Positions 16,233-29,041 of a DNA stretch of 64,000 bases are shown here, in pieces; the stretch's first letter is position 1, and every line of letters starts with the position of its first letter. Under the pieces are notes generated by a model, which saw only the letters and a list, made by a program, of their open reading frames with translations, was not told the DNA's origin and made no database searches. The DNA is from Asparagopsis taxiformis. Lineage: Eukaryota > Rhodophyta > Florideophyceae > Bonnemaisoniales > Bonnemaisoniaceae. The position numbers were made by a program, and so were the translations under genes. The stretch covers positions 62,001 to 126,000 of the forward strand of contig JALQPE010000232.1 of assembly GCA_030407315.1 (NCBI GenBank), written 5' to 3'.

Positions 16233-18244
16233 TCAGACCTCCGTCAGAACACTATCCCTCGCTTCCTCAACGTCATAGAAATCACTAAATCTCTTCGCTG
16301 TTTGCGGCACTTGCTTTCTTTGCTTGTCGTTCTGCGCGCTTGTAACTTTTGCTTTTCGGAAGCCCTTCTTCCAGAAAACGAGAATGAGCACAGAGAACAG
16401 CAGCGGAGGCAGCACGAAAATTCCAACTGGAACCAAGATAATCAAAGGGTCAATGCTACTCGACTGGTTTTCGCAGTTGAGCTGGACTTCATCATCCACA
16501 AACTCCTCAATCTGTCAAAATTTTCACACACACACACATCTATCCTGTCAGTTTCAGATCCAGTTCAGAAAGGCAACAACGCGACAAATATAACTTACTT
16601 TTCCTTGCGTACGGAGGAATAGGATTTCTCGGTCTACCTCTCTGCGAATTGTGTCGTTGCATGCGCTATTATACAACCATCCGCCATTGAATGCGTACAA
16701 TACATCATGGGTACCATATATGGCCAACCGACCTGTTATGCGTATTAGAAAGGTAAGGGGTAAAGTCAGTGTGGCTGCCAACGGCTTCTGATTTCTGGTC
16801 TGCTCACGAAATGCCACAACGTACTGCAATTGGATTCCCTGTCAATTAGATATTTCCCTGTAACTTCAAAAGTTACTGTGAACAAAACCTTACTATTCAG
16901 GTCGGCAGTTTCTCGGATACAGCCAGCGCCCGTATCACATTGGTGCCAAGGAGGATTCTGATCTACATTCTTGGCTCCGCTCGGATCCACTGGAGAAAGG
17001 GGGTCGGCAAAAAGTTTGGAATACACGTTAGAATCGAAGAGAGAAAGCGACTAGAATGAAAAGAAGCTTGACACCAACCTATATTGGTGAAGATGTCTTC
17101 TAAAGCAGAATCTTTCAAAATCGAGTAAGATTCCAATTCTCTTCGACTTAAAACACGGACATCTCTTGCTAGGGTAAGCGATTGTTGCTGGAACAGAAAG
17201 TTAACGACAGCCACCTCATAGAACAGAGCGAATATTGCAAAAAACGAGAATAATCCGACGCGGAAAAACGTCAATGCCAAACCATACTTCGTAGTGAACG
17301 ATCGGCTCTCTTGCTGCGTGAGAGCAGAAGCATTACTGTCCCGACGTTCATTTTGTGGTGCGAGATACGACACGAGATACGGTCGTTGCGTAGAAACAAG
17401 AGAACTAAAGCTGGCATCGTTAGAGGTAGGTTGCTTTTGGCTAGAAAACGACATTCGCTTTTCCCCTTGAATTCGATTCTCATGGGCAAGAGCCTCATCA
17501 CTGTCACCAAACAATATGAAGAAAGCAGTCACAAGAGATCTGCCGCGAAAGACGTGAAACCGGAGAGCAATACCAAAGGCAACTAAGGCGAAAAGCAAAA
17601 GGGTTGCACCAAGAATAGCCCACGTTTCCCATTCAAATGGGCGGCTCAGTTGATGAAATGGTCCTGTACCTTCGGTTTCTCGATTATTCGTTCCAACTAT
17701 AATCATTACGTTGTCTATAAGTGGGGCACTTGGAGTGTGGTGACAACGACGTTGTTCTGTTTCTAGCAGTATGCCAGTTATGGCAAACATGTATCCCTCA
17801 TCTGCCTTGATTTCTGTGAAGTCAACGAGGGCGTTGAATGTGCATTGACTTGTTGGACCAATCCATGCACAGTACTGATCCTTGGCGGATGTTTCATCGA
17901 TGACGGCGAATGCAATACCATCAAGAGTTCGATGTAGTTTTTTTTCGATTTTCGCTGCCGCATATAAACGGCCTTTGCCATATCTCTGCATCTTGTTCTT
18001 CAGAATATTGGGATGTGTTCAATTGGATGAATGGCTCTTCTTGCATGAAGAGATAACATATTTTGGTTTTGCAAATCTCAAATGCGTCAGGTTCTTTTTC
18101 CAGAAGGGACAGACAATTGTTGCCCTCTTTCAGATTGTCGTAGTTCTTTCGAGCATCATGAGTGGAGCAATTGAATGGTTTAGGTTCCGCTGAGAGTGCA
18201 AGACGTGTAAGAGAAATGAGGATGAGAGTACGGACAAAGAACAT
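16233..18244 (-). pseudogene. Receptor-like membrane protein, copy B (iGluR-like, one frameshift)
   Basis: Nearly full-length member of the receptor-like family. Exons by comparison with copy C: 18244-17079, 16989-16866 (the 3' edge may shift by one or two bases), 16823-16808 (16 nt), 16732-16599 and 16511-16233. Donors include canonical GTGAGC and GTAAGT. The ATG at 18244 begins a signal peptide (MFFVRTLILISL). S1-like, M1, polar loop, M3, S2-like and M4 regions follow. One base too many in a T8 run at 17938-17945 (A8 on the coding strand) shifts the frame after CGSENRK; copy C reads through there. This is either a real inactivating indel or a homopolymer sequencing error. The gypsy element at 18460 lies 216 bp upstream of the ATG, so its promoter has probably been disturbed. 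Confidence 0.6.
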
Positions 18245-18459
18245 GTTGATGGTGCAGATGATGCCCCAATGATGTATATGAGGGGGGGAGATGTGGATGT
18301 GCAACCCTTAAAGGGAGAGTTCAGGGCGGCCAGGGGTGTAGTATGTCCGAGAAAACGTAAGAAGTGTCACTAACCATAAGGAACATAGTTCGATACTGTA
18401 TGAGTGAAGAGGATTGCAAGCAGGAAAGCGGTAAGTCTTACAAATCAAGGTGTTGCATT
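18245..18459 (-). promoter_or_regulatory. Proximal upstream region of receptor copy B
   Basis: Contains CTCCCTTTAAG about 65 nt upstream of the ATG. A similar CTCCCTTTAAAG sits about 67 nt upstream of copy C's ATG (near 43035), so this is a plausible TATA-like core element. The segment ends at the gypsy target site GCATT (18455-18459). The matching upstream sequence continues after the element at 25489. Confidence 0.35.
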
Positions 18460-18691
18460 TGTTGTACGCGGCCACGGGACGGGGAGTGAAACGGTGTAAA
18501 ATGTAGAAACGTAGATAGATCGATTTTTACTAAGTCTAGCTTATCTCCCTCTAGGTTATTCCGACCGCTGGGAGCTGTATTTAGCTTCCTACGGTTGGAC
18601 GACTGGAAACTTCCAGACGTCTACCTAACCCTAAATTAAAATTCTGGTAGAAATTACCTGTAGAATTTTTCTTGTAAAAGTCATTTCCACA
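18460..18691 (-). repeat. 3' LTR of Ty3/gypsy element
   Basis: 232 bp, no differences from 25257-25488 seen by eye, ends TG...CA. In element orientation it begins TGTGGAAATG and ends GTACAACA. Flanked on the left by GCATT. Confidence 0.95.
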
Positions 18692-18702
18692 TGACCCCCC
18701 GG
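18692..18702 (-). other. Polypurine tract of Ty3/gypsy element
   Basis: On the coding strand GGCCGGGGGGTCA immediately precedes the 3' LTR. A purine run in this position is the expected plus-strand primer for reverse transcription. Confidence 0.6.
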
Positions 18703-18750
18703 CCAGACCGAGGCACCGAGGAGGTCTAATTTCGCAGGTTCTGGGCCGCG

Positions 18751-18762
18751 CTCGGTATAAAA
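18751..18762 (+). promoter_or_regulatory. TATA box of the antisense H3-mimic gene
   Basis: CTCGGTATAAAA, about 270 bp upstream of the ATG at 19025 and pointing into that gene. The same CTCGGTATAAAA string recurs at 26141-26152, so it looks like a genuine core-promoter context in this genome. It lies inside the element and outside the LTR, so the antisense gene carries its own promoter. Confidence 0.5.
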
Positions 18763-18782
18763 GCCGGCAGTACTTCCGCGTG

Positions 18783-18801
18783 GGTCTGGACTCCAGACCC
18801 T
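18783..18801 (+). promoter_or_regulatory. 19-bp perfect palindrome downstream of the TATA box
   Basis: GGGTCTGGA-C-TCCAGACCC, 9-bp arms around one base, about 20-40 bp downstream of the TATA box. It may be a binding site or a 5'-UTR hairpin; its role is unknown. Confidence 0.4.
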
Positions 18802-18822
18802 CTTCCACCGCTGACCCCTTCC

Positions 18823-18890
18823 TTACTGTAAGCACCGTAAGTACTTTACAGTAGTTGGTAGCTTACTGTAGTGCGATATCTTACAGTAAA
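18823..18890 (+). repeat. Four alternating TTACTGTA/TTACAGTA motifs
   Basis: Near-identical 8-9-bp motifs at 18823-18831, 18845-18854, 18862-18871 and 18880-18890 in alternating orientation, between the TATA box and the H3-mimic ATG. They could be operator-like sites or a foldable 5' leader. The leader also has GTAAG strings, so an unrecognised 5'-UTR intron is possible. Confidence 0.4.
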
Positions 18891-19024
18891 CGTCTGTTTG
18901 CAGCCATCCCACTTCCCGCCTTCCCTTCGGTCGTCTCTCCGAGCACCCTGCGTAGTCGCGGTCATCGATTTGTTGAGATCTTGCTTACGTGGGCCTTTCG
19001 GTACCTGGTGGGTGATCCATTGAG

Positions 19025-20486
19025 ATGGCCAAGACGAAACAGACCGCAAAGAAGTCGACTGGGGGGACTGCCCCTCGGCAGGAGCTAGCTGCTCGGGCGG
19101 CGCGGATTCCCAGACGAGACCCTCCCGCGGCTCCTGGCACCTACCGTCGCGAGGGCGGCCAGGAGGTACGCTATCGCCCCGGGGAAGCCGTCCCCGCGCG
19201 GGCCAACGAGGTTAACTTCGACGACAAATCCCATCGGGGAATTCGTCAGAACCTCTTCCGTTGGTTCGGACGTGAAGACGTCCAGAACATCCGCCGCTCC
19301 TCCGACCACCGTGGTCGTTTCGTCGTCGACTTTGGCCGAAATCGTCGCGATCCGTGCCAAGTGACGGCCAGGGAACTAGAGTTCCTCTTCGGGCCTCAGA
19401 TCGTCGAATTCGCCTCCGATCCGGCCATCTCCATCCTTACCGCGGAGATGGCTTGTCGTCTCGGTCTCACTGAATCCCACGGTGACACCGAGAAGTACGC
19501 CGAATGCCCCGACGACACCGATTGGATCATCGAGAAGATCTGGTTGTCGAAGGGAGGTGAGAACGGCGAACTGGAAGGCTGCTTCTATGCCTCCGCCGAA
19601 GGGGAGCGAACCGGCCATCGAATCGATCTGTATACCATGGTTTTCCGTCAGGTCTCCGAACCGGCGGAGCGCGACGCGGCACTCCAGGAGCAGGATAACC
19701 CCTCTCCTGTGACCAGAGGGAATGGTCAACCCTCGCGGGTGAGTTTAATAGCCAGTATCGACGCTTGGTGTTACAAGAAACCTGGGAAGAAGAAACGAGT
19801 CAATGTCGCCATGGCTCGGGTGCCCTCCCTCGAAGCCCCCCCATTCTTCGTGGGGACTCCTCGGAACCGCGTGGTGGTACCTGTGCAGGACTTCACCAAC
19901 AACTGCCTGCGTGCCGCGGCCGCCAATGGGATCGCTCTCGTGTGCGATTTTAACACGGCCGATAGGTTTTTCCGTCGGGAGCTGGCTCGGGACGAAGAAG
20001 AACGCCTTGTTCGAGGTTATTATACTAGTGTCGTGGACTTTGGTTCTGTCTCGAAGGCCATCGATGATCGTGCTCCTTCAACGGTGACTCTGCCCCGGGT
20101 GGCGATCCCCCATTTCGACCTAGGAGCCCCAGATTCGCGCTCTAGGCAATGGGCGTGGTTACGGGAGAAACTTTCGAGGGAGCCGGACGTATACGTGGTG
20201 CAGGTTTGGAGTCGAGATGGCCTGAAACACGCCATATGTATCGACTCTTGGTACCTGGCCTGGTCTCATCTACGACTCCTCTGAAGCCTTTGTGATGAGT
20301 CTAGAGCCTCGGGCATTCTTCTTATGTTGTAGCACCAGTAAGTCGTCGGATTTCTCCTCCTTCAACGATCTTCGACGCGTCCAACGGGAGGGTTCGAATC
20401 CAGAGGAGAAGCGTGCTAAGCGACAGCGCATGAGGAAGCGCGAGAAGGTTCGCAAAGCGAAGATCGACGGTGAGGGGTTGTCTTAG
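19025..20486 (+). CDS. Histone H3-tail mimic with papain-like peptidase domain (antisense gene of gypsy element)
   Basis: 419 codons to a stop at 20282-20284; after a one-base shift near 20246-20262 homology-like reading continues (LIYDSSEAF..., ending in a basic tail) to 20486. The N-terminus after Met is AKTKQTAKKSTGGTAPR and aligns with the histone H3 tail: 19 of the first 26 residues are identical, the changes being R2K, R8K, K14T, K18Q, Q19E, T22A and K23R. K4, Q5, T6, K9, S10 and T11 are kept, K27 is Ile, and RYRPG (residues 49-53) matches H3 40-44. No histone fold follows. Residues about 55-280 are unrecognised. The C-terminal part has Gln288, Cys294 (NNCL) six residues later, and His402 in HAICID, the order and Gln-Cys spacing of papain-fold peptidases. 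It is convergent with pol (166 bp apart) and has its own TATA box. Function is inferred, not known. Confidence 0.75.
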
Positions 20487-20652
20487 CACAGAACGATTTG
20501 ATAGAGAAGGAAATGAATCGTATTGAGTAGACTAGCTAGTAATGGGTAGAGAGATCTAGAATTGAAATGAATGCGTAGACAAGGGTTGAATGATTAAAAA
20601 GGGATTATGCATAAAAGGGAGTGTGCAAGCGAAGGGTTTCCCTAATGGAAGC

Positions 20653-23600
20653 TTAATGCAGTAGATGTAGTGGACGCCTACGGAAGAGAAGTAGACGTCT
20701 CGCATGGATGGGGCGACGTGATACCTTCGCTTGGTCGGAAGCGAGTAGGTATCGGGGGTGGCTAGCTTGGATGACCTTAAACGGTCCGTACCACTTGGTT
20801 TCGAACAACGACAACTTCGTCGCTCCGAAAGCTTTCCCTTTCGCCACAAGGACCTCGTCGCCTACCTCGAACCGACGTTCTGGTAGGTGAGCTCGAGCTT
20901 GGGTATTGCGTAGATGCATTTCTACCCTGCTCGCTCGTTGCGACTGGAGAGCTAACATCTCAAACAGTCGGGATTGAGGGTCCAGCGGACGGTCCAGAAG
21001 CGGTGACGGGTCGTGGGCGACTACCCTTGGTACCACTCCGTACATCAGTTCGAAGGGTGAGGTGCCGCCTGTCATGCAACGACGGCGGTAACCGTAGAGC
21101 ACGTGCGGGAGTAGGATGTCCCATTCGACCGAGTCCCTGCCTTTAACTTTGGCTAAGGACCTCTTGATGGTCCCTACCATTCGCTCGGCTCGCCCATTAG
21201 ACATGGGGGAGTACTCAAGCACGGTCTTCCAATCGATCCCGTTGCTCTTCATGAAACTCGCGAGTGTCGCAGCTGTGAAACACCCCGCATTGTCGGATAC
21301 AATGGTAGTTGGGGGGCCGAACGAGTAGATGATCTCATCCTTCACGAAATTGAGTACGACATCCGCGGTACTAGCTGCGGTGGCCCTGGCGATAGGCCAG
21401 CCAGTGAGGTGTTCCACAGCGATGAGAAGGAATCGGTTACCTTTGGCCGTGCGCGGGAGCGGCCCCGCAAAGTCGATGGAAAACGTGTGGAAAAGGCCTG
21501 TCAACGGCTGACTCAGGGTAGTCCGATAGCGGGGTACCGGTTTATTCTTCTGACACCCCTCACAACTCCGAACGTAGTCGTGAATGTCCTTGCCCATACG
21601 CGGCCACCAGTAACGTTCCACAATAAACTGGCGGGTCGAGGCAGCGTCCCAATGACCGATGTTGTCGTGGAACATTTGCAGGATCTTGATTCGGAGCGGA
21701 ATCGGTGCGACTACCTTGGGTCCCAACGCGGTGCGGCGAAAGAGCTGGTCTTCCCAGACTAAGAAATCCTTGGAACTCCGTCGAACCTTTTGTCGAGCTA
21801 GGCCCTCTACTTCGGGTTCAGCTCCACCCCGTAAGTATTGGAACACTGTGACTAGGTCAGGTTCTATGCGGAGGGCTTCTGGAATAGCAAGCAGGGCGAG
21901 GTCGCCCTCATCTTCTCCTGACCCCGGAGCGGTATGGGTTTGTTCTAGACGGGACAGAAAGTCTGCAGCGGAGTTCTGTTTTCCCGGCCTGAACGATATG
22001 ACGAAGTCGTATTCCGCGAGGAAGTCGAGCCAACGGGCAAGTCGCCCGTGTATATCTTTCTTCTGGAATGCGTATTGCAACGCTTGGTGATCCGTCATCA
22101 ACTTGAAGGGCTGGGTGGACAGAAGGTAGAGTCGGAATTTCTTCAGTGCAAAGATAACTGCTAGGGCTTCCCGTTCGCATGCCGAATATTTTCTTTCAGC
22201 CGTATTCATCGTCCTACTCGCGAATTGAATAGGATGAATACGCCCGTCTTCCTTCTTCTGCGCTAGTACAGCTCCGACGGATACGGAGGAGGCATCTGTC
22301 TCGACTAAGAAGGGAGTATCGAAGTCAGGGAAGGAAAGGACGGGAGCCGAAGTTAGTTTTTCCTTCAGCGTCCCGAAGGCTTGATTCATCTCCTCTGTCC
22401 ATTCGAAGGAACGTCCAGAAGAGGTATATGGGAATAGAGAAGCCGAGATGTCAGCAAACCCCTTAATGAACCGGCGATAGTAGCCCGCCAAACCGAGGAA
22501 GCTGCGGAGCTCGGAAGCGGTTTGCGGCGGAGCTACATCTCTAATGGCAGAAATCTTGGCGGGGTCTACTGACACCCCATCGTGGCTAACGATGTGACCA
22601 AGCAACTCGACTTTAGGTTGAGCGAAGAAGCATTTGACGACCTTCAGCTTCAAACCCCTCTGACTTAGGGACTCGAAAAGGATACGAAGGTGGGAAACGT
22701 GTTCTCCCATGTTTTTAGAGAATACCACAACATCGTCGAGATACGCTCGGACGAATGGTAGATCCTTGACCATCTCATCCATCATCCTCTGGAAGGTGGA
22801 CGGGGCATTCATTAGTCCAAACGGCATAACTTCGAACTTGTAGGTACCGTAACGGGTGACGAAAGTCGTCATCTCCTTGCAAGCGGTATCCATTCGAATC
22901 TGCCAATACCCAGAGAAGAGATCGAGAGTGGTGAAGAGGGAATTTCCTCCCAATTCATCGAAAATCTCTTCGATCCTGGGTAAGGGCCAACGATCGGGTT
23001 TGATCTTCCGATTCAGGATGCGGTAGTCGACGCAGAAACGAGGTTTCCCGTCCTTCTTCGTAGCAATGACCACCGGGAAGGACCATGCTGATGAGGCCGG
23101 GGTGATGATTCCCGCTTCCAGCATGCGATCGATTTCGGATCGTACTACCTCGTTGTGTTTCGGCGACAACCGACGAGGTTGGTGGTAGACAGGGGTGTCG
23201 TCTTCCAGCTCAAAAGAGTGTTTAACAGGGACGTCGGCTTTCCTGAGATCGTGAAAGGACCAAGCTACGATTCCGTAGTCCTTCAACGACTCCGATATAA
23301 CTCGTCTATCCGAGGGTGATAGATGCACGAGTTTTTCTTCGATGAGCTTGTCATGCTCTTCGGTCTCAGAGAGGTCGCTCTCCTCTTCGACCGCTAATTG
23401 CGGCTTGGCGAAATCAACGTGGGCGACAATTAGCGTACCTTCGTCTTCTTCGCCTGAAGAAGTCGTCGAGGCTCCTTCATCGGTGCTGAGAGACGTGAAG
23501 TCTTCGCTTTCACTACCACCCTGAGGAAGGAAGTGGAGGCCGTTATCGGGTTCTAGCCCAATCCGCGCCGATTCTTCGCCGAGTTGTATCTCAACGACTC

Positions 23601-25272
23601 GACTCCCAATATCCAGTTTAGCCTGTAGATCTTCCATGGCCGGTAAGCCGATGATGAGGCCGATAGGTGCCTTTTCAATGGTGAGGAAATCCATGGAAGC
23701 TGTGAGGTTTCCAAAGGTTATGGGCACATCTTTGACACGGCCAATGCAGTTGGCGCTCGACCCATCTGCGACCGTAATCCTCTGCTTGGTACGCTTCGGC
23801 AGGAGGCACAACTGACGGGCGAGATCAGCAGAGATGATATTGGGTATAGCCCCAGTATCCAGGAGCGCGCGAATCTCTCGACCATAGATACGAACTGGCG
23901 CGACCATCAGAACTCGTTTGTTCTGAACGTTTAAGGCTGGCGCAGCCTTACTCGGTCGGCGATTCTTAAGAGGCGAGAAGAGACGTCGCATCTCTTTGGC
24001 GGCTTCGGCGGCGTCTCCACGAAGGAGTTGGCCGAAAGTGAGGCCTGTGGACGCATTAGCGAGCTCTCCAACAACGTCGTACTTTCCGACGTGATCTTGA
24101 AGAACCTTCTTGGAAGTGTTCTTTTTCTTCGCCTTGCGGTTTTTCTTCCCTCGGATGGGAAGAGGCTCCAGTTGCAAGGGAGGTAGGATACGACCAGGCG
24201 TTGGGTGCATCAGGTTTTCAGTGTTGATCCCCTCAGCTCGACGTTGCTTCGGAACCGCTTCTCCCGTCATGGTACGTTTCGTAGTACCAACAACATCGGG
24301 AGTTGCGGTTACAACGGTAACTTGATTCGAACGGGAGGAATCGTCCCTGCCGGTAGAGGGGCTCCTCTGCTTCTCCGTGCCCTTCTGGCGACTATAGCAA
24401 GTCGCGACAGAATGACCCAGACGACCACATTTCGAGCAACGGGTGTCTCGGTGAGGGTTTTCGGGGCAGGAGTTAGCCCCATGTCCCGGTTTCTGACAGA
24501 AGGAGCAAGGACGAGGCGTTTCGCGCCTATCCGATGAGGATGCTCCTGTCTGCTTGCGGACGATGAGGGAGAGCTCAGCGAGTTGCTCCGCTAGCTTGTC
24601 CACCTTGTTCTCCACCTGTGACGTTCGTGCGTCGGGACGGTTCAGGACCCGCTTAGATCCAAAGGTGGAATCGAGCGGGTGCTGTTTCCCTGTATCGTGA
24701 TATGGGACGGAAGAGAGGAAGTCCTTGCGACCCTGGTCGAAGTCACGCACCACTTTCTTGAGGTCGGTGTAGTGCGTGGCACCGCGATAGATCGCGAACT
24801 GGGCCAGTTCTGGGAAGCGGGAGAGTGCATTCCTCAGAAGGCCAAACTTAGCTTCATCATTGAAAGATGCCTTTTCGAACAGACGATCCATAGTTTTGAG
24901 CGAGCCGACAAGATCCTCGGGATCCAGTACCGCGTTGATGGCACTGCGGATATCGTCACTCGGCTCTGTCTTGACTCCGAAACGATCGATGAAGGCCTTC
25001 TTGACGAGGGCGTAGTTCATAGCCTCTTCCGTCAGCGCTCCATCCTTGGCGAACGTTTCGTAGTAGAAGTCGAATGCCTCGCCCTCGAGGTGGGCGAGGA
25101 GTTCGAGAGCTTTCTCCTCGTCGGACTTGCCGCGCATAGCGACGTTCTCGAAGAAGAAGAAGAACTTCTTGACGTCGGAAGAGAGAGAGCCGTCCATCTT
25201 AGCAGTGGATGGACCCGCCTGCTGGTTCGGGTCGTCGGCCCTCCACAAGAGTACCATGTTGTACGCGGCCAC
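20653..25272 (-). CDS. Ty3/gypsy Gag-Pol polyprotein
   Basis: One open frame with every pol domain. Gag occupies about residues 26-250. Two CCHC zinc knuckles lie at 256-269 and 279-292. An aspartic protease has LLDTGA (Asp472). Reverse transcriptase spans about 700-880 with YLDD at 844-847. RNase H has TDAS (Asp993). Integrase has an HHCC finger (about 1202-1240) and D1267, D1327, E1363, followed by a GPF-type C-terminal segment. No chromodomain is seen. The listed first codon (25272) is GTG inside the LTR. The first ATG is at 25257-25255, with its A being the last LTR base and the rest forming the primer-binding site; Met26 (25197-25195) is the next candidate and the safer start. No stop or frameshift interrupts it, so the element may be autonomous. 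Confidence 0.93.
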   Translation of the reverse strand: MAAYNMVLLWRADDPNQQAGPSTAKMDGSLSSDVKKFFFFFENVAMRGKSDEEKALELLAHLEGEAFDFYYETFAKDGALTEEAMNYALVKKAFIDRFGVKTEPSDDIRSAINAVLDPEDLVGSLKTMDRLFEKASFNDEAKFGLLRNALSRFPELAQFAIYRGATHYTDLKKVVRDFDQGRKDFLSSVPYHDTGKQHPLDSTFGSKRVLNRPDARTSQVENKVDKLAEQLAELSLIVRKQTGASSSDRRETPRPCSFCQKPGHGANSCPENPHRDTRCSKCGRLGHSVATCYSRQKGTEKQRSPSTGRDDSSRSNQVTVVTATPDVVGTTKRTMTGEAVPKQRRAEGINTENLMHPTPGRILPPLQLEPLPIRGKKNRKAKKKNTSKKVLQDHVGKYDVVGELANASTGLTFGQLLRGDAAEAAKEMRRLFSPLKNRRPSKAAPALNVQNKRVLMVAPVRIYGREIRALLDTGAIPNIISADLARQLCLLPKRTKQRITVADGSSANCIGRVKDVPITFGNLTASMDFLTIEKAPIGLIIGLPAMEDLQAKLDIGSRVVEIQLGEESARIGLEPDNGLHFLPQGGSESEDFTSLSTDEGASTTSSGEEDEGTLIVAHVDFAKPQLAVEEESDLSETEEHDKLIEEKLVHLSPSDRRVISESLKDYGIVAWSFHDLRKADVPVKHSFELEDDTPVYHQPRRLSPKHNEVVRSEIDRMLEAGIITPASSAWSFPVVIATKKDGKPRFCVDYRILNRKIKPDRWPLPRIEEIFDELGGNSLFTTLDLFSGYWQIRMDTACKEMTTFVTRYGTYKFEVMPFGLMNAPSTFQRMMDEMVKDLPFVRAYLDDVVVFSKNMGEHVSHLRILFESLSQRGLKLKVVKCFFAQPKVELLGHIVSHDGVSVDPAKISAIRDVAPPQTASELRSFLGLAGYYRRFIKGFADISASLFPYTSSGRSFEWTEEMNQAFGTLKEKLTSAPVLSFPDFDTPFLVETDASSVSVGAVLAQKKEDGRIHPIQFASRTMNTAERKYSACEREALAVIFALKKFRLYLLSTQPFKLMTDHQALQYAFQKKDIHGRLARWLDFLAEYDFVISFRPGKQNSAADFLSRLEQTHTAPGSGEDEGDLALLAIPEALRIEPDLVTVFQYLRGGAEPEVEGLARQKVRRSSKDFLVWEDQLFRRTALGPKVVAPIPLRIKILQMFHDNIGHWDAASTRQFIVERYWWPRMGKDIHDYVRSCEGCQKNKPVPRYRTTLSQPLTGLFHTFSIDFAGPLPRTAKGNRFLLIAVEHLTGWPIARATAASTADVVLNFVKDEIIYSFGPPTTIVSDNAGCFTAATLASFMKSNGIDWKTVLEYSPMSNGRAERMVGTIKRSLAKVKGRDSVEWDILLPHVLYGYRRRCMTGGTSPFELMYGVVPRVVAHDPSPLLDRPLDPQSRLFEMLALQSQRASRVEMHLRNTQARAHLPERRFEVGDEVLVAKGKAFGATKLSLFETKWYGPFKVIQASHPRYLLASDQAKVSRRPIHARRLLLFRRRPLHLLH
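25239..25256 (-). other. Primer-binding site of Ty3/gypsy element
   Basis: Directly after the 5' LTR the coding strand reads TGGTACTCTTGTGG, starting with the TGG complementary to a tRNA CCA end. The primer tRNA would end CCACAAGAGTACCA. The gag frame can be read through this site. Confidence 0.6.
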
Positions 25273-25488
25273 GGGACGGGGAGTGAAACGGTGTAAAATG
25301 TAGAAACGTAGATAGATCGATTTTTACTAAGTCTAGCTTATCTCCCTCTAGGTTATTCCGACCGCTGGGAGCTGTATTTAGCTTCCTACGGTTGGACGAC
25401 TGGAAACTTCCAGACGTCTACCTAACCCTAAATTAAAATTCTGGTAGAAATTACCTGTAGAATTTTTCTTGTAAAAGTCATTTCCACA
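25257..25488 (-). repeat. 5' LTR of Ty3/gypsy element
   Basis: 232 bp, no differences from 18460-18691 seen by eye. Followed on the plus strand by the second copy of the target duplication GCATT (25489-25493). Confidence 0.95.
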
Positions 25489-26245
25489 GCATTGTTGCCG
25501 GAAAAGTATGTTGATTTTTTTCATTCAACGATGGCGCGTCTTTCCTTTCGCAAAGGGAATATTGAATAATCCTTGGATATACTACGAGTAGGAATGAAGG
25601 GTATGAGGGCAGTTCACCTTGTTGTGGAGTGGTACAACTCCCCAATGGAAGATGCGCAGAGGTGCAAAAGAAGGATGGCAGCAATGAACAGGTGCATGGT
25701 TATCATCAATACGCGAACAATGAACGCATGTGGGTGGTTGAAATTTCAAAAACTTTCAAAAGTCATCTTCCTAACAATAAAGCTCCATCAGAGAGACTGG
25801 GGCTGTTCCATGCACAATCTCGAGCATGAAAAAATCGTGAGCGTAGATACTTTTGATTTGTAGATCTGGTATTGGGTGTGTGTACAATCCATCAGGTGGC
25901 ATACTACTGTGAGTCAGCGACCAGATATGGGTCATCATTTTCATTAAAATTTGAGTTCTATGCGCAAAACTCCCGCGAAATACGGAAACTAGAATGGGTG
26001 CCTTCAGAAATCCACCACTTGACTACTTCACCACTTTTGAGCCAATAATTGTACAAGGAAAGTAATTGGATGTTTACCACTTTGAACGCGGAGAAGTTGT
26101 CTACCCTCTACCCGAGGGTACTCCGCTTTACACTCCAGTGCTCGGTATAAAATGAAGTCATACATTGGAAAACAGACTGTCCTTCGCGGTATGAGGGCCA
26201 TAGTCGGAACAAAAAGGGACCGTTGGACTATTAATCGAACATTTC
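25489..26245. other. Upstream flank of receptor copy B, continued; no gene
   Basis: Continues the duplicated block cut by the gypsy element. About 25580-25840 matches 43340-43540 upstream of copy C (for example AATGGAAGATGCGC in both). The short open frames here are part of this shared flank and are not convincing genes. A plus-strand promoter-like stretch sits at 26101-26152. Confidence 0.5.
26101..26152 (+). promoter_or_regulatory. Promoter-like stretch (GGGTAC, CTCCAGTGC, TATA)
   Basis: CCCGAGGGTAC, then CTCCAGTGC, then CTCGGTATAAAA (TATA at 26146-26152). The LTR at 26246 begins 94 bp downstream, so the gene it served may have been cut off. The GGGTAC and CTCCAGTGC pieces recur together at about 13990-14018. 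Confidence 0.35.
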
Positions 26246-28421
26246 TGTAGGACCAGCCGGGGTGGCGATCGCTAAGGGAGTTCTAGAATTGCAGTCGTAT
26301 CAGGTCGAGGTGAACCGGATCGCGCTGGTTGAACTTGCGTTTCGCGCGTCGCTCGTGTAGTGCAATGCCACTTGGCGAAGCGCTTACAGCTAGGTGTTTC
26401 ACCTCCAATTTTGGGCACTTTACCCAATTCTTTTAATTCTCAACTATTTTGGACTATCTATTCTAACAGCAGTGCAATCACTGAACACGTGGCACGTGAC
26501 ACCAGTGATACACTGAATTGTACACTACACCTAACGGTTTACACTGTATTTACAGTGTGCCAGCGCCGCCGGCGCACCCGTCACTTAGGGTTTTTCGACC
26601 ACCCCACTGTATCAGTATTTAGCCTAGCTATTGGACACCAACCACAAGGACATTTAGGGTTACAAGCCACATGTAATTTATTATTTAACTAGAGGCGAAT
26701 CGCCATGTCCTTTGATTGTAAAAGCCAGCCGGAAGCTCGGTGTCCAATCTACCCCCAGGGTGCGTTTTGCCTACTGATTCAGTGTGCTTCTCCCTTGGCT
26801 ATGGTGCTTGGCACTCTTCCGGTGTCCCTTTTCGCTGATTCAGCTTCTCAATGTCGGGACGCTGTATCAGCATTGCCCCTACCACGCGTCACCGGTGGTG
26901 CGCGTGCCCCTCAATCAGGTGTCTTCGGCCGCCTGGTGCCCACCCGGAGGTATGGTTGCGAGCCACTCCCAACTTGCGTTTCGCAGTCTCATTACAGCCT
27001 GCTTCGACTTTGGCTATAGTGTCTGGCCTGCTTCTGGAACCCATTCCCCGCTGTATCAGCTTTCTGTCCTGGCCGTCGTGCTGGTTCAGCAAACCCCCCG
27101 CCGACCAATCGGACTTGGTTATTGATGTGCTCCCAAATATCGTTTTGCAGTCTCATAGAAGCCTGCTTCGTCTTTGGCTATAGCGCGGACCGCGCCGACC
27201 CTGGTCACTCTCTGATTCAGTCTTTGACTGGTTATTCTGTTGGATCAGCTTCCCTTTCCCTGATACCACGCGTCACCGGTGGTGCGCGTGCCCTTCGATC
27301 AGGTATCTTCGGGTGCCTGGTGCCCGGCTCTTGAGCCATTGCCCCTCTCCCGCTGTACCAGCGTATCGCTGTATGCATCGCTGTACCAACGTCCGCCCTA
27401 TCCTATAGGGCTCCCCCTTCTTCTTCTCTTTTGCTTCTTATACAGGGCACTCACCCCTTTTGTGCCTGGTGTCCTCCCTTCTTCCCTATTAGGGTTGGTG
27501 AACCACCATCCTTTCGGTGCACCACCATGACTCACCATGTGACCACAGGATTCTAGACGGATCGTCTGTGTGGCCTTACAACCCACACTAAGGCAGGCGA
27601 TTCGCCTTTGCTCTACCACACTCGACCCGAGCCTGACTACCGAGACAGGAAGGCTCGAACACCTCGCGGTGGCTCGCCGATTCGGCTTACAGCCAAGGCT
27701 GGCCGTTGTCGAATCGACCAAGCCATTGCACTACAGCTCGGTCGCGGTGGCGATCGGCTGGTACAACGGCGGAACGCGTAGGGATCGATCGCAACACGGG
27801 ATTCGCGGGCCGGCGCAAGCCGTGATCTCAGGGTGAGATCACCGAGTAAACCCGAGCACAACGCGATCCACACAGGGGTCGTAAATCCCTGGCCTAGTGG
27901 CGTGCGACGCAACGCGCGCTATCGCGGTGCGACGCAGTTCGACGATCGGTTTATGCGCAGCGCGCACGCGAACATCGGCGATCGTGAGCAACCCGCACGC
28001 AGTGTCGTAACGCAATCGGTCCTCGTGACGCGCTAGACGCTTAAATCGTAGCTGCGAAGATGCTGGCAGTTTATTGGTAAGGTGCGAAGCAGAACGACCA
28101 TTAATAGCTAACTACTAAGGACAGGTTGTCCTTGCGTGGCTGGCCGGCGGCCGCTCGCTCGCACGCAAAAAGGGAAATATTTGGGAAAAAGACTTTCGTC
28201 ATAAAAAACCCAAAAAGGGGAAATAAAGGGAAATTCGTAGAAATCGCTTCGCGTGGCGCCGGGCTCGCAATCGCACGCGTTCGCACAGGCACGCCGTGAC
28301 ACGTAATTGTATCGCCACGCGTACGCTCGCTTACTAACTAACTAAACGCGGATGCACGCAGACTCAACTCGATGCCATCGCTCCGACCCGCGTTCGCGCT
28401 CGCAACATAAATTGCATCACA
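26246..28421 (+). repeat. LTR of family RLT-A, copy 1 (with nested insertion)
   Basis: Begins TGTAGGACCAGCC and ends ATCACA. Without the nested insert at 26356-27735 and its target copy it is about 790 bp, like copy 3 (800 bp). It matches copies at 32401-33875 and 36331-37130 (minus). It is followed at once by TGGTCCACCTGCCCGC, a TGG-initial primer-binding site, so this is a 5' LTR of a truncated retrotransposon and not a solo LTR. Confidence 0.75.
26356..27735. mobile_element. Nested 1,380-bp TG...CA element, family RLT-B
   Basis: Inserted in RLT-A copy 1 with target duplication GCTCG (26351-26355 and 27736-27740). Ends are inverted: TGTAGTGCAATG and CATTGCACTACA. This size and termini fit a solo LTR or a non-autonomous LTR element. 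It has internal direct repeats: about 65 bp with CACGCGTCACCGGTGGTGCG at 26880 and 27267, and a GCAGTCTCAT...GCTTCG unit at about 26980 and 27147. No coding capacity seen. Confidence 0.75.
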
Positions 28422-29041
28422 TGGTCCACCTGCCCGCTTCTTTTAACGCCGCCAGGGGACCGGGAGTGGCCTTCCGCCCACCGGGACAAGGCTACCGGCT
28501 GGGAGCGCTGTCGGTTCGGCATCCCCAGCCGGTCAACCGAGCCAACGCCCGTGGGATTCTCAATCGGTTTCGACCGCAGCAGCCGGCGGTATCACAGTTG
28601 CAGAACCCGCTGTGTGGGCACCCACGCGTGGAGGCGACCACAATTCCCCGCGGGGATCCATCGCGTTAAGCGCGTAGTTAACCCTTGAGTGGGTTGAGGA
28701 CGGCCACGGCCGATAGATCCCTCCGGCAGGATAGATCCAGCCGTCCCGGACCCCGCTCTACCACCCGTTACCGGGTTGGGGGACAGGTGTCCGGGCTCCG
28801 AGGGATAGATCCACCCGACACAGCCCTCCGGTGACGAGGATCGCACGAGACATCCGCCTCGTGGAATCGGCGCTCTCACTCGTGAGTTCGAAGCCTTATC
28901 CTTATCTACTAATCCTCCTTGGAGGTACAATCTATCTTACAGGGCTAAGGTCCTACAATTCTCCAATGCCCGTTGCATTTATACTTCTGTCCCAGAAACA
29001 CTCGAAATTCGTAACATGGCCGGCCACGAGCATTCCACCCA
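28422..29041 (+). mobile_element. Internal remnant of the RLT-A retrotransposon
   Basis: Starts with the primer-binding site (28422-28437) and continues with GC-rich sequence of no recognisable coding capacity. It is cut at 29042 by an RLT-D LTR. Confidence 0.45.

Follow-up and report, generated by a model that had tools for sequence, protein, structure and literature searches.

A long histone H3-like tail encoded by an antisense gene of Ty3/gypsy retrotransposons in Asparagopsis taxiformis

Results

A Ty3/gypsy element with an antisense gene

The window, that is, the whole stretch of 64,000 nucleotides that was analysed, contains an LTR retrotransposon with an additional gene, which is encoded opposite to gag-pol and occupies the interval from the stop of pol to the 3′ LTR. 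The features concerned are the following.

18455..18459, no strand: target site duplication GCATT (5 bp), left copy
18460..25488, minus strand in its sense direction: Ty3/gypsy LTR retrotransposon, 7029 bp, delimited by identical direct repeats, its ends and the target duplication
18460..18691, minus strand: 3′ LTR in element sense, 100% identical to 25257-25488
18756..18763, plus strand: TATAAAAG, a motif outside the LTR and a candidate TATA box for the antisense gene
19025..20284, plus strand: antisense gene with the H3-like tail, from the list of open reading frames; 419 codons here, 486 in unshifted copies
19028..19105, plus strand: H3-like tail, residues 1-26 after Met, from the H3 match and the tail-motif search
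19169..19183, plus strand: RYRPG in the translation, residues 49-53, the last H3-like motif in family 1
20245..20284, plus strand: region behind the frameshift (near residue 408), from comparison with the 486-codon copies
20653..25257, minus strand: gag-pol open reading frame, 1534 aa, from the list of open reading frames and the Pfam domain scan
25257..25488, minus strand: 5′ LTR in element sense, from the direct repeat pair of 232 nt each
25489..25493, no strand: target site duplication GCATT, right copy

The element has TGT...ACA termini, a PBS-like TGG after the 5′ LTR and a G-rich stretch preceding the 3′ LTR. The Pfam scan of gag-pol revealed an aspartic protease, RT, RNase H, H2C2 and rve integrase in Ty3/gypsy order; about 450 residues lie ahead of the protease, and the sole gag-type match was a zinc knuckle below cut-off (12.6 versus 20.8 bits). 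By its LTR ends, target duplication and PR-RT-RNase H-integrase order, the element belongs to Ty3/gypsy, and its earlier description as a young member of this group is borne out by the identical LTRs, the GCATT at both flanks and the domain order. No Chromo match was obtained in the window pol (Pfam, E ≤ 1) or in its C-terminal 215 residues (E ≤ 0.1), while the same scan recovered Chromo in L081, a copy of a more distant family.

Translation of the antisense frame at 19025-20284 begins MAKTKQTAKKSTGGTAPRQELAARAAR. As compared with the 486-codon copies elsewhere, the window copy has a frameshift near residue 408 and ends at residue 419, and a conserved Asp and the basic C-terminus lie out of frame downstream of the shift. 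The frame is broken despite the identical LTRs, and the shift may be an assembly error. On contig C2571 the gene likewise has 419 codons and the left flank is the same as that of the window (40 bases compared); because of this shared flank and reading, C2571 is probably the window locus on another contig or allele and no second insertion.

The start of the gene was assessed by reading the upstream frame at 12 loci (L048 left out), five from family 1, that of the window copy, and seven from the diverged family 2. In family 1, an in-frame stop is located four codons upstream of the ATG in all five copies read and in the window, so that the tail is firmly N-terminal, barring splicing. The frame of family 2 is open for 52-140 codons upstream in 7/7 copies read, with an in-frame upstream ATG in three of them, and the MARTN start itself occurs in seven of nine places. 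The family-2 tail is likely N-terminal as well, but it may instead be internal given the open upstream frame and the additional ATGs. As to a promoter, 20 of the 23 distinct upstream sequences of family 1 have the TATAAAAG box at -260 to -269 relative to the ATG; the sequences are close relatives, so these counts are weak evidence that the box could drive the antisense gene. A CATAAA is found at -195 to -209 in 6/7 family-2 copies. A homologous TATA box common to both families was considered, but their upstream regions align poorly and it stays a suggestion.

Several other features of the window were recorded. Two overlapping frames of 342 and 107 aa (16963-18244, minus strand) adjoin the element, the longer with hydrophobic stretches and no Pfam match. 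A 62-nt repeat is present at 26880-26941 and 27264-27325 with a spacing of 384 bp, and frames similar to this region occur beside a family-2 fragment on contig C2232 (also L047, 1-500), so that the region looks like a dispersed repeat without a name. TRF found no tandem repeats at 26000-29000, and Rfam gave no match in the window at the gathering score.

The tail is homologous to H3

The original prediction held that the antisense gene starts like histone H3 and that no histone fold follows, and both statements were upheld. The tail is identical to H3 in 19 of the 26 residues after Met (20/27 with Met), histone H3 was the best match of the protein in a phmmer search of PDB sequences (E 2.5e-7, over residues 1-90), and Pfam at E ≤ 1 gave no PF00125 match in the antisense protein. 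Together with the reversed-pattern control below, which yielded no site, these comparisons indicate that the N-terminal segment of the predicted protein is homologous to H3, beyond chance.

Two element families carry the gene

The host genome (141.49 Mb in 3156 contigs) was searched with the antisense protein, resulting in 93 matches. A loose tail pattern, QTA-(x)(x)-(S/T)TGG, matched 40 sites genome-wide and its reversed control none. These sites comprise 29 of family 1 (one of them on C2571, which probably repeats the window locus), seven of family 2, three in host H3 and one in neither (C354), i.e. 36 of the 40 are element genes. Antisense-gene matches were found on 30 of the 33 contigs with family-1-like pol matches, the exceptions being C1562, C1967 and C2436. 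The gene is opposite in strand to the neighbouring pol match in the window and on seven family-2 contigs (C436, C910, C952, C1656, C1764, C2237 and C2821), and in L042, a family-2 locus, the C-terminus of the integrase runs into the antisense gene. The integrases of the two families share 52% identity. The tail, whose conservation among other copies was named as decisive by the original prediction, therefore occurs in 36 element genes of two diverged families.

A third family of related pol sequences (integrase identity 52-54%; C806, C1771, C2018, C953 and C704) gave no match to the antisense protein on its five contigs in the protein search, and a frame listing of the region after pol in C806 and C953 contained no frame of at least 70 codons resembling the gene. 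This family (L079, L080) seems to be without the gene, which implies either a loss in this family or a gain in others, and as it gives no match, an element of such kind can do without the gene. An integrase tree of seven rows grouped families 2 and 3 (support 81/83, under the starred level); its outgroup branch is very long, and the tree gives no firm order of gain and loss. A more distant Ty3 family with 28-31% integrase identity is numerous in the genome, and an open frame of some 1533 codons is seen in many of the copies listed. The sole copy of this family tested, L081 (contig C1870), has an integrase chromodomain (PF00385, E 4.7e-9), and its contrast with the window pol, which lacks a Chromo match, is suggestive only.

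Relation to the host H3 genes

The tails of both families agree with the host H3 genes in 20/27 residues, yet share only 2-8 identical codons, compared with 27/27 residues and 12 codons for two host H3 paralogs serving as control. One host H3 gene (C578, L012) has an intron inside codon 44, the Gly codon of RYRPG, right after RYRP, while two other copies, both on contig C171, match over their full length and are intronless. Since the H3 likeness of family 1 ends with RYRPG, just where this intron lies, we infer that the tail may stem from a past capture of H3 exon 1. On contig C2491, a further gene with an H3 fold (L013) has a diverged N-terminal tail, CenH3-like in our reading.

The same position of the C578 intron might be taken to mean that the window copy alone has fused with a host H3 exon, and the likeness might also be one by mere chance. 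Such an explanation is almost certainly wrong: the tail motif is carried by 29 family-1 and 7 family-2 genes, the codons are heavily diverged from those of host H3 and the tails agree between the families, by which both a one-off fusion, anticipated as a danger in the original prediction, and chance resemblance are refuted.

The tail agrees between families at the protein level

Comparison of family 1 with family 2 revealed 20/27 identical residues in the tail and 158/397 (40%) in the body (Fisher one-sided p 5e-4). At the shared residues the same codon is used in 6/20 cases in the tail and 69/158 in the body. The predicted tails thus agree between the families at the protein level while most of the shared residues differ in codon. 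Among 23 distinct family-1 copies, compared with one reference and including several broken or partial copies (lacking as many as 616 of the 1461 positions), pN/pS was 0.38 for the tail and 0.30 for the body; for the seven unbroken 486-codon copies the values were 0.38, resting on four silent and four replacement changes, and 0.21, respectively. As judged from these ratios, the antisense frame in general is under constraint in family 1, and within this family the tail appears, if anything, nominally less constrained than the body, on tiny counts.

These data bear on the reading that the antisense RNA or its promoter is what regulates, the protein tail being a mere remnant of H3 sequence captured long ago. 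LTR elements have antisense transcripts that can work as RNA, as described in the cited part of PMC7264820, the window copy is young yet broken, and family 2 lacks K4, K9 and K14. However, the constraint on the antisense frame and the agreement of tail residues encoded by mostly different codons speak against it, and we give this reading little credence.

Residues kept and residues lost

To be compared residue by residue, the tail was counted in family 1 over 25 alignment rows, two of which read out of register in this region, and in family 2 over nine separate places; the 14 "family 2" alignment rows, two of which have host-H3 residues and some of which represent one place under two locus ids, served for body columns only. 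H3-K4 is kept in 23/23 family-1 rows and H3-K9 in 23/25, the other two being those out of register. In family 2, K4 is Asn and K14 is Arg in 9/9 places, K9 is Arg in eight and Gln in one, and S10 and T11 are present in all nine. At H3-R8 both families usually have Lys. The positions on which H3 and the two families mostly agree are A1, a basic residue 2, T3, Q5, T6, A7, S10 and T11 in the first half and G12, G13, A15, P16, R17, L20, A21, A24, A25 and R26 in the second, with exceptions in family 2 at position 1 (Asp in C519), G12 (C836), A15 (C1764) and R26 (C2232), and at T3, G12, P16, L20 and R26 in C723. The recurrence of RYRPG at residues 49-53, noted by the original prediction, holds for the window and family 1; RYRPG was not found in the family-2 places.

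The emphasis of the original prediction on K4 and K9 is not supported in the form given: both lysines are kept in family 1, and both are absent from family 2 in 9/9 places, so that writers and readers of K4 and K9 cannot be the target shared by the two families. A putative function requiring methylation of K4 or K9 can apply to family 1 only. The two families, with these lysines kept in one and absent from the other, represent a ready natural mutagenesis of the tail.

It is established that H3 tails mediate nuclear import, and the tail could be a signal for nuclear import or for docking to a histone chaperone, borrowed for the H3 import route. At positions 8-9 the charge, but not the exact lysines, is mostly conserved, which fits such a signal, as does the nuclear location of the accessory protein that maize Grande encodes in antisense (described in the cited part of PMC7264820). 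Nevertheless, a basic C-terminal run is already present in both families, and an import signal has no obvious need to keep Q5, T6, G13, A15 and P16; we consider this explanation unlikely, though it deserves to be kept in view.

A conserved body with a candidate Cys-His-Asp triad

In the predicted protein, the H3-like tail is followed by a poorly conserved linker that changes fast and then by a conserved domain of some 350-400 residues. The C-terminus is basic and in both families contains NLS-like runs of the KRAKR type. The body gave no match above cut-off in Pfam, NCBIfam or PDB sequences; the weak matches were NOMO_6th (E 0.07-0.2; 0.072 for the window frame), PH_27 (E 0.07) and PDB sequences (E 0.96 and 1.7). 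The sole match in the protein database was P0001 (486 aa, ENA, from a 2295-base contig), obtained with the whole protein, a tail-less three-row alignment and residues 270-486, where the whole-protein and three-row-alignment searches scored the 8000 candidates sharing most words and may miss distant relatives. A scan of viral contigs revealed no relative of the antisense protein.

Within the rows covering each site (P0001 numbering), C294 is conserved in 21/21, H402 in 21/22 and D417 in 22/22 rows of family 1, and in 9/10, 7/7 and 7/7 rows of family 2, some places of which were counted twice. The spacing of these residues, a candidate catalytic triad by its pattern, suggests a papain-like hydrolase. 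If so, the tail could act in cis as a pseudosubstrate or propeptide of the cysteine-hydrolase-like body, and the body would in trans cleave H3 tails or the proteins that bind them, or remove modifications from either. This is in line with the conservation of all three residues across both families and with the cis-acting H3 mimic of Swi6/HP1 (described in the cited part of PMC7192584). Still, none of the weak body matches (NOMO_6th, PH_27, PDB), all of them below the cut-off, is a protease, and the catalytic assignment, made by pattern, is a putative one; we regard this explanation as rather unlikely.

Discussion

A tentative model of an H3-tail decoy

The reading we favour, tentatively and at a little less than an even chance, is that the antisense gene encodes a nuclear accessory protein whose decoy H3 tail docks host factors that bind H3 tails. 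A lineage of Ty3/gypsy elements carries this accessory gene antisense between pol and the 3′ LTR, and its product is probably located in the nucleus. There the tail would act as a decoy or ligand, engaging a host protein whose normal partner is the tail of H3, through features other than methylated K4 or K9, such as the free A1, T3, Q5-T6-A7, the phosphorylatable S10-T11 and R17. Once docked, the tail might tether the accessory protein or the element machinery to the host complex; alternatively, the host complex might be titrated away from the element's own chromatin, resulting in less silencing. A further version, which we rate as a long shot, is a bait-and-act weapon against silencing, in which the decoy for silencing factors or for the chromodomains of rival Ty3 elements would be combined with a cysteine-hydrolase-like domain acting on the catch.

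If the decoy model is correct, the long H3 tail that these accessory genes have retained would be a decoy of natural origin, moulded by the conflict over element silencing, and it would provide the antisense ORFs of LTR elements with a directly testable set of partners.

Comparison with known systems

Antisense genes of the aORF-3R kind include gene23 of Grande and those of RIRE2, Retand, PvRetro13 and Boty (described in the cited parts of PMC7264820 and PMC11963269), and the roles of antisense ORFs in LTR elements are given as unknown in the review PMC7264820. The present gene resembles them in its position between pol and the 3′ LTR and in its presence in most copies of the family. Grande is described with its own upstream promoter and a nuclear protein, whereas the present gene has a TATA-like candidate box only. 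No aORF-3R gene is described with a histone tail in the cited parts of PMC7264820 and PMC11963269, and TRP28 and SMC, domains reported for aORF-3R proteins, were absent from the Pfam scans of the present body.

Captured coding segments are known from other elements. Orchid Ty3/gypsy elements with a captured m6A-demethylase domain likewise represent a lineage of this group in which an additional coding segment related to the host became fixed, in that case an enzyme domain and here a histone tail (cited part of PMC9289625). The H3L gene in a hAT DNA transposon of Pyrenophora tritici-repentis is similar in that a mobile element has H3-derived coding sequence in many copies, but it is described as an H3-like protein with a globular domain and a recent expansion (cited part of PMC3538342). 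In contrast, the present case involves the tail only, on an unrelated body, in an LTR element, and is common to diverged families. Chromoviruses are also Ty3/gypsy elements linked to H3 tails, and a chromodomain element (L081) resides in the same genome; they encode a reader of the tail in their integrase chromodomain, whereas the present element encodes the tail itself and has no chromodomain match. The statement that no described LTR retrotransposon with an H3 tail is known agrees with the openly licensed literature, where none was found among the matches listed (titles and starts of abstracts).

Histone mimicry is known mainly from short viral motifs, and the H3 mimics of influenza NS1, SARS-CoV-2 ORF8 and Swi6/HP1 are motifs of a few residues. 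Like these mimics, which belong to genome parasites or to a chromatin protein, the antisense protein has an H3-like stretch on a non-histone protein (as described for Swi6/HP1 in the cited part of PMC7192584), but the stretch extends over about 26 residues, plus RYRPG in family 1, and in family 2 it lacks the methylatable K4 and K9. We therefore rate as new the combination of an antisense accessory ORF with histone mimicry of unusual length, each of which is already known in kind.
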